Part shown: piece after piece, positions 5,927-59,957 of the stretch
How positions within the stretch are numbered: the stretch's first letter is position 1
How the letters are laid out: each line of letters starts with the position of its first letter
Origin: a virus
Strand: one strand, 5' to 3'
Virus record (IMG/VR): IMGVR_UViG_3300027759_006101
Coordinates: 1 to 64,000 of that record
Length of the DNA: 64,000 bases
The notes under the pieces: generated by a model
The model's input: only the letters and a program-made list of their open reading frames with translations
What the model was told of the DNA's origin: nothing
Databases searched by the model: none
Translations under genes and position numbers: made by a program

Positions 5927-6700
5927 ATGGAAGAAAATACAGAGCCTGAATCATTTATTGTTCAAAATGTTACTTTAGGTCCTCATTATGTAAGTGATAT
6001 TAGATTAAACTTTGGGCCACTTGAGGCTATTGATTTGACTTGGGAAGATTCTAAAGTTATCAAAGCGTCAAAGGATTTGAGAACATCTTTGCGTATGGGA
6101 TTCTTAAAAAAAATATCATCAGAACAATTTGATAGTATCGAAGAGAAAGCTGCGATTAGAGGAAAGAAAGAATTACTTAGACAGCAGAATGCAAACAACC
6201 TCAGAACAGTTGATGTTGATGGGAAGCAACTCGAAGTAGAAACAATTGATACCGAAAAAGTTTACAAGAAAGAAACTGAGGTATCAACAGCTGGGTATGC
6301 AAATGATTCACTATCATATGCAACAGCCTTTGACATTGCGCAAACACAAGCACAACTAAGGGGAGATGAATTGTCAATTGAAGAGTTTGCTGAACAAGTA
6401 AACAACAACGCAAATTTAGTGCAAAATTTGCTTAGACAACAAAAAAACTTAGATGAAAATTCATCAACTTCAGGTGACAGCAGAAGAGGCAAGGCATTTG
6501 TCGCAGAAGCATCAGACAACCCAGTTAATGGAACATCTGTTAAGCAAGTCAACTTGACGAATTATAACAGAGACAGAGTTGTTGCTGGTGCAGAAATGAA
6601 CTTTTTAGATGCTCCAGATGACGACGGTATTGCTGACACTATCGATTTAGAAACTGAGATTGACCTTGAAAGTGAAAAGGGCTCAATACGACGGGTTTAG
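5927..6700 (+). CDS. Hypothetical structural-block protein, 257 aa
   Basis: The protein is acidic and Asn/Gln-rich. The N-terminal ~70 residues (predicted beta, SFIVQNVTLGPHYVSDIRL) look like a small folded domain of the kind that anchors other phage proteins. Residues ~85-185 are helical and polar, and the C-terminus is strongly acidic (many Asp/Glu). No family is recognised. It follows the FmdB-like gene by 4 bases and ends just before a rho-independent terminator at 6724-6755, so the two probably form one short transcription unit. Confidence 0.7.
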   Translation: MEENTEPESFIVQNVTLGPHYVSDIRLNFGPLEAIDLTWEDSKVIKASKDLRTSLRMGFLKKISSEQFDSIEEKAAIRGKKELLRQQNANNLRTVDVDGKQLEVETIDTEKVYKKETEVSTAGYANDSLSYATAFDIAQTQAQLRGDELSIEEFAEQVNNNANLVQNLLRQQKNLDENSSTSGDSRRGKAFVAEASDNPVNGTSVKQVNLTNYNRDRVVAGAEMNFLDAPDDDGIADTIDLETEIDLESEKGSIRRV

Positions 6701-40445: not shown

Positions 40446-41300
40446 TTAGCTTACGGTAATTCTTGAAACTGCATAGTCATTGATGAGCGCAAAACCGAGC
40501 TCTTCGTAAACAACCCATCCAAGTCTAAGTCTCTTTGGATCGTCTGCTGGGAGAACAGTAATGTCTTGGCGAACTGGCATTGCACCAACGAATTGGGCAG
40601 GAGCAAGAACGTAAACACTGTTCTTTGGAACCATTGTGGAGACATGGATGTCTGCGGAATAAATATGTCCGTAGAGACCAGTCATAAGGATATCTCTTTG
40701 AGTTGCCTCATCGAAGAATTCCTTACCCCAGTTTCTGATATCCTTGTATCTTTGCGGGTGAAGAACAACCTTAGCGCCGATTAACTCGTGCTCTTCGATG
40801 AGGGTCAACGCAAGGTTGACGTTCTCTGGTTGAAGAGTACCAGAAACGGAGATTGATTGGTCAGTTGGAACACCAGCATTGATGACCTTGAAGACTTCAG
40901 TATCTTCTTGTCTTTGGAGGGAGTCCTTAGCACGGACTTGAGCTCTATCGACGATGTAGAATCTTCTTTGGCGAATCTCATTGAGTCTGATCTGTGGATG
41001 AGCAGCCAACTCAATGGTTGGAACAAGAAGCTCTTCTGCTTCAACTTCTGCAGCAGGAACAGCACCACGCTTAGGAATAACGTATGACTTTACAGCCACG
41101 TCTCTCTCATAGCGAGCTAAAGCACCTTGTGGGAGCTCATCGACCATAAGAAGCTTACGGCCAATTGCTTGGTACATAAGGGAGGTCTTGATTGGCTCAA
41201 CCATTGCTTGTGCAAGTGCTGTGCGTCCCTCTGGAGTCTCAAGAGCCATTGCAATAATGGACTCTCTTTGCTCATTTGTGTTTCTCTTAATCATTGACAT
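40446..41300 (-). CDS. Major capsid protein (HK97-fold-like), 284 aa
   Basis: The best capsid candidate, by position at the end of the protease-scaffold-decoration series and by composition. The N-terminal ~60 residues are helical (EQRESIIAMALETPEGRTALAQAMVEPIKTSLMYQAIGRKLL). A beta-rich core follows, with YVIPKRGAVPAAEVEAEELLVPTIELAAHPQIRLNEIR. Internal sections such as VVLHPQRYKDIRNWG and MPVRQDITVLPADDPKRLRLGWVVYEELGF fit the A-domain and E-loop of HK97-like capsids. G-C content and codon choice are higher than in neighbours, typical of a highly expressed gene. AAAGGAG is a strong ribosome-binding site. No cleavage site is evident. Confidence 0.75.
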   Translation of the reverse strand: MSMIKRNTNEQRESIIAMALETPEGRTALAQAMVEPIKTSLMYQAIGRKLLMVDELPQGALARYERDVAVKSYVIPKRGAVPAAEVEAEELLVPTIELAAHPQIRLNEIRQRRFYIVDRAQVRAKDSLQRQEDTEVFKVINAGVPTDQSISVSGTLQPENVNLALTLIEEHELIGAKVVLHPQRYKDIRNWGKEFFDEATQRDILMTGLYGHIYSADIHVSTMVPKNSVYVLAPAQFVGAMPVRQDITVLPADDPKRLRLGWVVYEELGFALINDYAVSRITVS

Positions 41301-48117: not shown

Positions 48118-50499
48118 TTATAAATATTTTTCACCATCTCCATTTGAACTTTGACCTGTACGTTTTTTAATTGCATTTATCAAGACGTTCAAACAATCTT
48201 GAGGATGATCTTGTAGCTCTTTATCAGTAAATCTAATTATAATCCAACCATTGACTGCTAATTCTGAATCTCTTCTCTTATCTTTAGCAATTTTATCTGG
48301 ATTGTTGTGCCAAATTTCTCCATCTGCTTCAACACCAATTTTCAAGTTTGGAATTGCTCCATCCAATTGATAATCCATTGTTGGACCAGCTGAATATTGA
48401 GCATAAAGTGGGAAAGGCATATTCAATGACATCAATAATCCATATAATTTCTTTTCTAAAGACGTAAACATCTTTGGTTGATTAATGTTTTCTAATTTTT
48501 TTGCAATAACCTGTCTGATAGATTCATTTTTGTTATTTGCATAATGATGCATTTCATTCATAGCATAATTATTCAATGGGTAAGAAAGCGAACCGCCAAT
48601 AAACGGTGTATCAATTACTCCAAAAAGACCATCATACTCAACTGGCAGAGGGCCTAAATTAGCTCTACCAGTAACAGGTTTCAGACTCATTAAGAAAGCT
48701 TCGTGAGCTGAAGATTTTATTTTCTTACTTGCGGTTCTAATTTTATCTGATTTATTTAAGTCGTCTAGTCTATTTTGATATATACTATTTACAATGTCTG
48801 ATGCGAGCCTATAATTTTCAAGCATAGATTTTGCTGTAGGCGCTGGAGCTTCTGGCATTGGGGCCGGAGGAGCTGCTCCAGCTGGAGAAGCACCAGGAGC
48901 TCCACCAACACCAAGGTCTGGTGCAGGAGGGGCTGCGCCCATGTCTGCACCTCCAGATGCGCCAAACCCTTGACCTGTTACGCCACCACTTTGAAAACTT
49001 AATGATATATTTGGTGTTCCAAAACTTTGGTCGCTCATAAAATTAGCGCCTTGTTCATATCTAAGTCTTTCAATTTCTTGGTCAGAATCAAGACCAAATG
49101 CTTCAATCAAGGAAACATTTGAAATTACACCATTCTGATTTGCTGTTACAAGCATCTGCAATTTGCCAGTGTCGTCTCTTAACTGCAGGTCATCAAATTT
49201 AATACGTGGATAAACAATTTCTTCTTGCCCACGTTCTCCTTCAATAACAAATCCATTCCATTTTGCAACGGGCATGAAAATATTCATTTCTACCCAGTGA
49301 GCAACTTCTCTTCGGAATGTTTCTAGTCTTTGAGCCATTGCAAGAAGACCAACTTGAGCGTTTCCGTAAGTAGGTCCTTCACCATTCAACAAGGCTTTAT
49401 TAAGCATGACACCATCAAGAATTTCTTGTTCGATAAGTTCAAATTCACCAGTCAAAGGGTGAATTTTTCCAGTTGCACCATACCACTCTAGATCAAAGTT
49501 ATGGTGAGTAACAAGAGTTAGGTTTGGATCATTCGCAATTGACGCTAATTCATCTTGAACATTGTCGATGTCTTCTTGAGATGCTGGTCTTGTATCGCTA
49601 CCAATCTTTACAACTTTGATTGGTAAAATAAGGCGTTCAGCAATCATATACTGAGCTTGTCTCAGTTTATCTTTGTATGTCAAAATTGGGAATAATGGTC
49701 TTATCATAGAGATGCCATAATCTTCCCAAGGATTTGAACCATACTTAAAGTGATGTATGGAAATCTGGTTTAATTTGATAGGATCGCCCTTGAGAATAAG
49801 TTTCTTAATTCCGTCTGGGATAGAATCATAAATATCTTTAGGATGTCTTTCGTTTACAATTCGGATTTCTTCAGCAGACGGTCTGTAAGCATAGCTACCC
49901 TGCTGGTCAATCATCCCTGGAGTCTTAATTACATTATCAGGGTTTAAAATAGAAATGGATTTCCAAGAAGCTCCATCGTGTTGACATTCTTGATTTTTAT
50001 CTTCGTCCCAGTTTGAACCGTGGCAGTGAGGGCAATCAATAGATAACAGAACAAAAGCATCACCTAATAAATGATATACTTTTGAAATTTCAGGAAGCCA
50101 TTTTTGAAAATTAAGTTTTTCTACTAATTTTTCAAAATAATCTTTAACGTAAGAAGATGAACATTCTAATTTCCAACCAGAGAATGGATAATTGGTATAG
50201 AAGTTAATTGCTGCAGAAACTTTTGGTTCATTGTTCTTCCACCAGTTTGCCCATAGATACACTTCACGTCGAGCATTTGGGATTTGAAATGAAGATGGAG
50301 TAAGGAATGGAGAATAGAAGTTAGGAGCAGTTGTGATAGAATTGATACTGGCAGATCTTGTAACACCAGGACCTAATCCTAAGCCAATACGACTACTTGC
50401 ATATGCTTGTTTTGATTCTGAAGTGGCTGTACTAGTCGAGCCTGAAACTTGTGTTGCTGCTGTTCTAATAGCAGATGCAAGAGATGTTTTTGTTGCCAT
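48118..50499 (-). CDS. Portal protein fused to a C-terminal Vsr/DUF559-type nuclease, 793 aa
   Basis: The first ~500 residues are portal-like: YLWANWWKNNEPKVSAAINFY, LPEISKVYHLLGDAFVLLS, a CPHCHG...CQHDG zinc-like insertion (~155-175), and DEIQDELA / HNFDLEWYG in the wing and stem. A Pro/Ala/Gly linker (~510-553) follows. The last ~115 residues match PD-(D/E)XK nucleases of the Vsr/DUF559 group: EKKLYGLLMSL, then MDYQLDGAIPNLKIGVEADGEIWHNN with the D and the E-x-D catalytic pair (~712-728), D-x-x-RD, and GWIIIRF. It is one continuous frame. A TATAAT box lies 7 bases before the ATG with no Shine-Dalgarno. The nuclease may act on incoming or packaged DNA, or may be structural. Confidence 0.8.
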   Translation of the reverse strand: MATKTSLASAIRTAATQVSGSTSTATSESKQAYASSRIGLGLGPGVTRSASINSITTAPNFYSPFLTPSSFQIPNARREVYLWANWWKNNEPKVSAAINFYTNYPFSGWKLECSSSYVKDYFEKLVEKLNFQKWLPEISKVYHLLGDAFVLLSIDCPHCHGSNWDEDKNQECQHDGASWKSISILNPDNVIKTPGMIDQQGSYAYRPSAEEIRIVNERHPKDIYDSIPDGIKKLILKGDPIKLNQISIHHFKYGSNPWEDYGISMIRPLFPILTYKDKLRQAQYMIAERLILPIKVVKIGSDTRPASQEDIDNVQDELASIANDPNLTLVTHHNFDLEWYGATGKIHPLTGEFELIEQEILDGVMLNKALLNGEGPTYGNAQVGLLAMAQRLETFRREVAHWVEMNIFMPVAKWNGFVIEGERGQEEIVYPRIKFDDLQLRDDTGKLQMLVTANQNGVISNVSLIEAFGLDSDQEIERLRYEQGANFMSDQSFGTPNISLSFQSGGVTGQGFGASGGADMGAAPPAPDLGVGGAPGASPAGAAPPAPMPEAPAPTAKSMLENYRLASDIVNSIYQNRLDDLNKSDKIRTASKKIKSSAHEAFLMSLKPVTGRANLGPLPVEYDGLFGVIDTPFIGGSLSYPLNNYAMNEMHHYANNKNESIRQVIAKKLENINQPKMFTSLEKKLYGLLMSLNMPFPLYAQYSAGPTMDYQLDGAIPNLKIGVEADGEIWHNNPDKIAKDKRRDSELAVNGWIIIRFTDKELQDHPQDCLNVLINAIKKRTGQSSNGDGEKYL

Positions 50500-57845: not shown

Positions 57846-59957
57846 TCATCTTCTGTTCAAATTGACCATTTTTGATTTAGGCAATCTTGCGATAATTTTA
57901 GAAGTAAGACATTCAAAAGAAACTGCGGCAACACAGTCACATATGTCGTCTTTGTAACCAGACAATGCTTCGATATAGTATCTTTTGCCTTTCCATTTTT
58001 TTTGCAAGAATAAAAACTGAGTTTTTGCTTCTTGAACTTCATTTAGTGGTTGTAGTGTATTGTGCATATCTGCGTAACTACCACCTGATAAATCATAGAC
58101 ATCAATCCTGTCATCTCTAATTAATTGAGCTAATTCTGTATAGATTTTTTCTTTATATTCTTTATTAAATTGTCTCTCTATAATTGGAACGCCATAACTT
58201 TGAAGCTTTATAACTGATGATTGTGAATTCCAGTGATCAATTGAAACTTGCTTAAATCTAAATCTACGATGTAAATCAATTACATAGTCTTCAACTTCTT
58301 TTTCTTTGACAGGTTGATTTCTTGTAAGAGGATTCCAAAAATGGATATGATCTATGACAACTCTCTTAAGAGGTGTATGGTCAGGCCCAATAGTCCCATA
58401 CATTGTCTCTGTATGAGCAATGACAAGAGCATAATAGTCAGATGTTCTCGCAGGGTCAATATGGCAAAAATATTCGAAAAGACCGTCTGGCATTTCTTTT
58501 CTTTTAACCATATTTTGACTTTTGAACATTTTATCTATATCTTCGGACATAAACATAGGGTCTGATGATGAAGCACCAAACTCAGCTCCATATTGCATTT
58601 GAAATTCTTGTGGGTCTTTTCTCTTTTGCCCATCAAGCCATTCTTTATCAATGTTTGGATTAGTAAGCCAAGTAGGAAGTCTCATCACAAGAGTTGTTGG
58701 ATCTTCCTGTCTATTTTCATGCAAGTCATATAGCAATCCAATAGGGCCTTTGGGGTTGGAAAGAAGCATCATTTTGCCATCTTTACCAAATGTAGCTAGT
58801 GATGGCTTCAAATCATCATAAAGACCGTAGTCAACGCCAGAATCTGGATTATCTCCTGCCATGGCTGCAACTTCGTCCATAATAATAGACCAACAAGTAA
58901 GACCAACAAGACCTGAAGCATTACTACTACCACATCTTAGGACTAATGATCCAGCAAAAGGATTGATTTTATCTTCTGCTCTTCTGACATTTTCTTCCCT
59001 ATCGTGTTCAGTATAAAACCTCATTTCAAGTTCAGTATCTTTACCTATATATGGAGCAAAAAATGGAGAAGCCAGAACTGTCTGTTTGATTTTTGAGAAG
59101 ATTGCTTTTTTAGCCTGTTCTTCATTTCTAGCAACGTTCAAGAGTACAATCTCATCAAATTCCATTAGTCCATATCTTGCTTGTGGATGACCCATAGATA
59201 TTAAACGATATAATTCATAAAGAGCCATAGCAGATACAAGGAACGATTTGCCAGAACGTCTCCCCAGTACTAAGACTAATTCTTCAAACTTGTATCTTTT
59301 TGTGCATTTTTCTTGAACTTGCATCCTTAGTTTTGGATCAAATTCCTCAGAATACAATAAATCGTTTTCTGTTTGAAACCCATCTATTATTGGCCTTGAT
59401 TCTAATACTTCTACCTGTCTTTCAGCATCTGGATTAGTTGCTTCTTGACGAGCATATCTATATCTTTCATCTCTTACGTTACTGTCAAGCCTAGAACACT
59501 GTAAACAAGGCGAATTTACAACGTTAAAAATAGTTTTAAATTGCTTTTCTTGTTCTCTAGCTTTAAAGAAAGCAGTTTCATTTTTATGGACATAATTCCA
59601 TACGCAACCATTACATCCAGAATCTGATTTATCATCTAAAATTGTAAGACTGGTATTTCCTTCCTGACCCATATAAAAACATTTCAAAATTAATTTTTGC
59701 CAAGGATAAGGCCTTAAATTACAAAAATACGGATGCTCAATAAATGTAATAATGTCTACAATTTGGTCAGGATTGAATCTATCTTTTGCAGGTTTGGCAG
59801 GAGGTGCAACTTCTTGTCTTCTTGCTGGAACAATTTCATCAGCAAAATCATTTGCATATTCAGTATCTTTGAAAAGTTCAGTTACAGAATTGGCTTGTTG
59901 TAGAAGCTGACTTCTAAGTTCATTGGAAGACTTGACTACAGGAGTTGGTTTTCTCAT
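57846..59957 (-). CDS. terL: Terminase large subunit (TerL), 703 aa
   Basis: The ATPase motor and nuclease that packages DNA into the prohead. Walker A is GRRSGKS (~233). Walker B is IIMDE (~358), with the catalytic Glu. The coupling motif region LLSNPKG follows. The nuclease domain has HIDPARTSDYY (~497), VSIDHWNS (~577) and KDDICD (~668), which supply metal-binding acids. An unusual insertion before the ATPase, CNGCVWNYVH...CLQCSRLD (~114-155), has two CxxC pairs that could bind zinc. The length (703) is above the usual 450-650 because of this insertion and an N-terminal ~70-residue extension. It overlaps the TerS candidate by one base. Confidence 0.95.
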   Translation of the reverse strand: MRKPTPVVKSSNELRSQLLQQANSVTELFKDTEYANDFADEIVPARRQEVAPPAKPAKDRFNPDQIVDIITFIEHPYFCNLRPYPWQKLILKCFYMGQEGNTSLTILDDKSDSGCNGCVWNYVHKNETAFFKAREQEKQFKTIFNVVNSPCLQCSRLDSNVRDERYRYARQEATNPDAERQVEVLESRPIIDGFQTENDLLYSEEFDPKLRMQVQEKCTKRYKFEELVLVLGRRSGKSFLVSAMALYELYRLISMGHPQARYGLMEFDEIVLLNVARNEEQAKKAIFSKIKQTVLASPFFAPYIGKDTELEMRFYTEHDREENVRRAEDKINPFAGSLVLRCGSSNASGLVGLTCWSIIMDEVAAMAGDNPDSGVDYGLYDDLKPSLATFGKDGKMMLLSNPKGPIGLLYDLHENRQEDPTTLVMRLPTWLTNPNIDKEWLDGQKRKDPQEFQMQYGAEFGASSSDPMFMSEDIDKMFKSQNMVKRKEMPDGLFEYFCHIDPARTSDYYALVIAHTETMYGTIGPDHTPLKRVVIDHIHFWNPLTRNQPVKEKEVEDYVIDLHRRFRFKQVSIDHWNSQSSVIKLQSYGVPIIERQFNKEYKEKIYTELAQLIRDDRIDVYDLSGGSYADMHNTLQPLNEVQEAKTQFLFLQKKWKGKRYYIEALSGYKDDICDCVAAVSFECLTSKIIARLPKSKMVNLNRR

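Follow-up and report, generated by a model that had tools for sequence, protein, structure and literature searches.

A portal gene that runs in frame into a C-terminal endonuclease domain was identified in a viral record of 358,269 bases (IMG/VR record IMGVR_UViG_3300027759_006101). The window analysed here comprised the first 64,000 nucleotides of this record. Based on profile matches and a predicted fold, the gene is assigned with high confidence as a portal carrying a putative DUF559/EDxHD endonuclease (Vsr-like, PD-(D/E)XK). Across its relatives, the nuclease is probably a fixed, single-copy and active component, neither an inactive clamp nor a passing mobile gene. Its carriers were uncultured giant phages, which form a large group.

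Portal and nuclease domains of the fusion gene

Within positions 48118-50499, the plus-strand frame contained 47 stops and the minus-strand frame was open over 793 residues. These coordinates agreed with those of the initial annotation, to which the minus strand, not stated there, has to be added. The unbroken passage from portal into nuclease that it had described was confirmed as one minus-strand frame holding portal, linker and nuclease (Table 1). The portal family phrog_16240 matched residues 60-421 (E 1.4e-28, PHROG profile search) and Pfam Portal_Mu matched residues 229-468 (E 4.9e-7). Together, the portal profiles covered about residues 60-483. A Pro/Ala/Gly linker, previously placed at about residues 510-553, was present at about residues 491-556. 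It was followed by a segment with two conserved islands (residues 557-670), located between linker and nuclease, which had not been mentioned before.

In Pfam searches with the 793-aa protein, MTES_1575 matched residues 710-777 (E 6.3e-9) and DUF559 matched residues 706-776 (E 4.3e-6). DUF559 scored 27.0 bits against a curated cut-off of 20.6. MTES_1575 scored 36.2 with the protein alone and 39.5 in a six-frame search, the curated cut-off being 38.2. All three Pfam families, Portal_Mu, MTES_1575 and DUF559, were matched in 18 of 18 aligned relatives. The motifs from which the nuclease had been proposed were located at residues 710-713 (YQLD), 723-733 (VEADGEIWHNN) and 751-757 (GWIIIRF). Profiles, predicted fold and invariant residues agreed on the proposed identity of a portal joined to a Vsr/DUF559-type PD-(D/E)XK nuclease.

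Table 1. Coordinates of the portal-nuclease gene, its parts and other head genes in the window
Feature	Position	Strand	Basis
Portal-nuclease fusion gene, 793 aa, stop codon included	48118..50499	-	Open frame, portal and nuclease profiles, relatives
Portal core, residues 59-490	49030..50325	-	PHROG/Pfam matches; 28% identity to Bacillus phage G gp14 over 59-487
Pro/Ala/Gly-rich linker, residues 491-556	48832..49029	-	Translation; poor conservation
Intervening segment, residues 557-670	48490..48831	-	Variable; conserved islands 563-567 and about 589-620
Candidate head-protease site 1, RLAS, residues 564-567	48799..48810	-	Conservation and motif enrichment
Candidate head-protease site 2, RTAS, residues 588-591	48727..48738	-	Conservation and motif enrichment
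DUF559/EDxHD nuclease domain, residues 671-785	48145..48489	-	Profiles, predicted fold
Predicted catalytic set E682, D713, E724, D726, H731, D740	48280..48456	-	Conservation
Next gene downstream: prohead protease (residues ~52-243) with long scaffold-like tail, 1379 aa	43855..47994	-	phrog_18299, relatives
Major capsid protein, HK97 fold	40446..41300	-	NCBIfam capsid_Caudo_2 E 2.2e-56; phrog_2522 E 4.8e-68
Terminase large subunit	57846..59957	-	phrog_2 E 9.6e-29

The model of the full-length protein had a pLDDT of 40, too poor for placing domains or for judging a clip-stem-wing-crown fold of a 12-mer. An AlphaFold model of the nuclease domain, built from 48 rows, reached a mean pLDDT of 82. 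The first matches of this model in the PDB, searched with Foldseek, included I-Bth0305I (3r3p, E 8e-5, TM to target 0.73-0.77) and NGO0050 (3hrl, TM to target 0.82), and many DUF559 proteins were matched among viral models. A sequence search with the alignment profile again recovered 3r3p and 3hrl. The structure prediction suggested as a check in the initial annotation thus yielded a Vsr/DUF559 fold of the PD-(D/E)XK type.

The residues E682, D713, E724, D726, H731 and D740 were invariant in 41 of 41 distinct fused portals, and a search for relatives that had lost the D and E-x-D residues found them kept in all of these proteins. D713, E724, D726 and D740 were also invariant among 48 rows that included bacterial and free phage DUF559 domains; E682 and H731 were conserved to at least 90% in the same alignment. 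By homology, the set is predicted to form an EDxHD-type active site, and the fused nuclease is probably catalytically intact. An inactive domain acting as a clamp had been offered as one of three roles; the other two, trimming of DNA and attack on competing DNA during ejection, may each apply. It can be reasoned that a nuclease close to packaged DNA is hazardous and that a DNA-binding fold could grip DNA as a structural clamp or plug, but the inactive role is disfavoured because the six predicted catalytic residues were invariant in all 41 sequences and the dN/dS of the domain was 0.13; it is considered very unlikely.

Distribution and descent of the fusion

In IMG/VR, the portal query returned 43 loci and the portal alignment 64. 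The nuclease part as query returned 57 loci, two of which were free-standing phage DUF559 genes. The proposed search of portal relatives for the same C-terminal domain found the nuclease in frame in all full-length relatives that were examined, 41 distinct proteins, with L069 as the only exception. There, one in-frame TGA (GAATTGAGCTGCT) was located at the linker, at positions 6669-6671, and the nuclease continued in the same frame; this could be a true gene split or a sequence error. The deeper members L225 and L227, with portals 43-47% identical, also held the nuclease (profile E 1.9e-28 and 1.1e-37, respectively). Because the fusion recurred in dozens of independent IMG/VR contigs, it did not represent an assembly join, and chance or an assembly artefact was ruled out. 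The nuclease domain was single-copy in each of five records of 300-379 kb, the present record included, and a separate nuclease gene was found in none of the four further records of this size. The domain was absent from phage G-like portals (27-31% identity), and no such domain was present, fused or free, in the 504-kb and 110-kb phage G-like records. One phage G-like portal (L228:3671-6721) continued in frame into a sequence homologous to phage G gp15 (E 2e-36), so that the 3' end of the portal gene looks prone to fusion.

Pairwise dN/dS values, which are relative as synonymous sites were rather diverged, were lowest in the portal core (0.077), followed by the nuclease (0.126) and the island 589-620 (0.133); the linker reached 0.33 and the variable segments preceding the nuclease 0.48-0.58. 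Portal and nuclease distances were correlated with a Mantel r of 0.94 (0 of 2000 permutations). In the tree, the fused nucleases clustered together, apart from their bacterial and free phage relatives, with a support of 89, which is suggestive of a single grouping but not proof of it. Judged from the correlated distances and the single nuclease group, the fusion most likely arose in a single event or early on and was retained thereafter.

A homing endonuclease captured at the 3' end of the portal gene, now selfish or a domesticated remnant, was weighed against this background. The nearest folds and several profiles belonged to homing endonucleases, and portal and protease genes of relatives hold inteins with LAGLIDADG enzymes. 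However, the domain was present in every full-length member and vertically inherited, a DNA-binding module was absent, and no relative with an empty site was found within the clade, the stop codon in L069 being the sole exception. Homing capture accounts for the origin of the domain better than for its present role, and as an explanation of the fusion it is improbable.

Head module and candidate protease sites

The portal gene was part of a head module that also encodes terminase, protease and capsid proteins. In the 1379-aa protein encoded downstream, the head maturation protease family phrog_18299 was matched with E 3.7e-20; the protease domain was N-terminal, and C-terminal stretches were zinc-ribbon-like with weak Pfam matches. 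For the terminase, a sequence search matched no solved relative. Gene order resembled that published for a group of bS21 phages (PMC9723584). The record was left unassigned to this group because it contained no S21 profile match. LAGLIDADG inteins were observed in the portals of L225 (residues ~88-871) and L227 (residues ~363-698) and in the prohead protease gene of L069 (8192-9334), and the protease genes of L062 and L070 contained insertions of similar size. Two N6/N4 DNA methyltransferase genes were present in the same genome (G000:C1:131541-132191 and 174468-175076).

A short motif, [KR]-h-A-[SAG], was enriched in the head proteins. It was defined as [KR]-[TVILFYM]-A-[SAG], i.e. with a hydrophobic residue or Thr at the second position, and expected counts were obtained from shuffling. 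The head cluster (40446-61415, 17 proteins) contained 26 occurrences against 4.6 expected, with a z-score of about 11 that is somewhat optimistic because the motif was spotted by inspection and then tested. Among 125 tabulated residue-class patterns, it ranked first in the head-cluster proteins. With portal and protease left out, 15 occurrences remained against 2.7 expected. In the tail-cluster proteins, counts were at chance level (4 against 4.4 expected). Enrichment was also found in the head loci of most relatives and in the head cluster of phage G (L046, 16 against 2.8 expected), which are partly independent of the initial observation.

In the portal, the motif occurred at residues 12, 564 and 588, the latter two between linker and nuclease. 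At site 1, Y563, K/R at position 564 and A566 were each present in 41 of 41 sequences. A few members had lost or changed site 2 (K/R in 40 of 41, A590 in 37 of 41). In the protease/scaffold protein, conservation was 0.86 for motif Ala residues and 0.66 for other Ala residues (six sites, sampling p 0.028), which weakly favours a cleavage motif. Judged from these sequence patterns, [KR]-h-A-[SAG] is a candidate head-protease specificity, possibly shared with phage G; it could be a binding motif instead of a cut site. A T4/phiKZ-type A-x-E site at AHE 598-600 was rejected: its E was not retained in L062 or L073, and L067-L071 had a different block.

Known systems and possible roles of the nuclease

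The catalytic domain of the EDxHD homing endonuclease I-Bth0305I (3r3p) has the fold and the conserved acidic core in common with the portal nuclease at 19% identity. Unlike I-Bth0305I, the portal nuclease is associated with no intron, intein or NUMOD, and it is fused to a portal and fixed in its lineage. No mobile intron or intein context and no additional DNA-binding profile were found for it, and it was not classed as an EDxHD homing endonuclease. The DUF559/MTES_1575 restriction endonucleases, such as NGO0050 (3hrl), share the D, E-x-D-G, H, D and R residues; the other members of these families found here were free-standing or part of helicase or homing proteins, unlike the portal fusion. 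Of the 35 phage records that the nuclease domain matched, none carried a portal annotation. Bacillus phage G gp14 has a homologous portal core (28% identity) and a Pro-rich tail but lacks the nuclease domain. In T4, endonuclease VII and gp4 are nucleases of the portal or head-completion stage, but they are separate proteins, and the fold of endonuclease VII is unrelated to that of the portal nuclease.

Enzymes fused to portals have been described before. Portals joined to a PBECR RNase, a 2H phosphoesterase or an inorganic pyrophosphatase were predicted in 2017 by Iyer et al., and these portal-effector fusions, which belong to the 'polyvalent protein' group, were suggested to travel in the virion and to be injected (PMC5512222). 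The present gene likewise has an enzymatic domain in frame with the portal, in this case a predicted DUF559/EDxHD DNase and not an RNase, phosphoesterase or pyrophosphatase. The initial annotation knew of no characterised equivalent. This held for a portal joined to a DUF559/EDxHD nuclease, for which no report was found in the open-access literature searched, but not for portal-enzyme fusions in general. Portal-effector fusion as such was thus already known, and its DUF559/EDxHD DNase version is apparently new. In the MuF polymorphic toxins of temperate phages, effectors are attached to a head protein encoded beside the portal gene (PMC5576092); the carrier there is MuF, whereas here it is the portal. 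No Phage_Mu_F domain was found in the genome.

The crown and C-terminus of the portal face the capsid interior in T4, SPP1 and P22, and the C-terminal barrels of P22 stand where the ejection proteins gather (PMC4493910, PMC4992974). Since crown and C-termini are on this side, the nuclease domains would be located inside the head. Up to 12 of them would ring the inner mouth of the channel on flexible tethers of ~100-180 residues.

Based on sequence and on analogy with these portals, a chain of loading by fusion, proteolytic release and delivery with the genome is tentatively favoured, at somewhat less than even confidence. The nuclease would enter the procapsid as part of the portal, which would serve as a loading device. 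The prohead protease of the adjoining gene would free it during head maturation at the sites 564-567 and 588-591, and the freed nuclease would leave with the DNA at ejection and cut host or competing DNA. We infer the release and ejection steps, and release is favoured because the motif [KR]-h-A-[SAG], specific to the head proteins, has conserved copies in the stretch that separates the linker from the nuclease. Cleavage of a portal by a prohead protease is possible since the portal of SPN3US is cleaved by its own prohead protease (PMC10052503). There, the cut takes off an N-terminal propeptide, whereas the cut proposed here would free a C-terminal domain. Further points count against release. 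Site 2 is not kept in all members, and in L225, the deepest member, the intervening segment was absent by eye. A free DNase in a filled head would also put the packaged DNA at risk, unless it is inhibited or specific. The more specific proposal, that a head protease with the new specificity [KR]-h-A-[SAG], cutting between A and [SAG], frees twelve nucleases that are expelled before the genome or together with it and destroy host or rival DNA, is doubtful in its entirety.

The main rival of release and delivery is a role in packaging, in which the attached nuclease would trim or debranch DNA at the portal or complete heads. T4 endonuclease VII binds gp20 and frees stalled branched DNA (PMC10893049), and the T4 gp4 DNase, a head-completion nuclease, is required for packaging (PMC7824862). 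In addition, the fusion is located within the head/packaging module and has long tracked the portal. However, the C-terminus should point into the capsid, past the point at which branched DNA would stall, the nearest folds were not resolvases, and a long flexible tether is unlike the needs of a fixed docking site. The terminase also appears to retain its own nuclease residues (Asp set HIDPA, SIDHW and KDDICD, by eye), and substitution of the portal nuclease for a dead terminase nuclease was rejected on the same observation. A packaging role is possible but rather unlikely. A nuclease that remains attached and cleaves foreign or unmodified DNA on its way through the portal, with the phage genome spared for instance by methylation, is more doubtful still, to about the same degree as homing capture or slightly beyond it. 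The two N6/N4 DNA methyltransferases of the genome might protect phage DNA, but no link between methyltransferase and nuclease was found, and the lack of a C5 methylase in the genome also counts against such cutting.

If the nuclease is active, this lineage of giant phages keeps a DNA cutter covalently attached to the channel that its own genome must traverse, and how the phage genome escapes cutting becomes a question. The fusion would also be a defined way of loading an enzyme into the capsid in fixed numbers. Beyond the nuclease, the motif in the head proteins predicts a head-protease specificity, which phage G may have in common with these phages.
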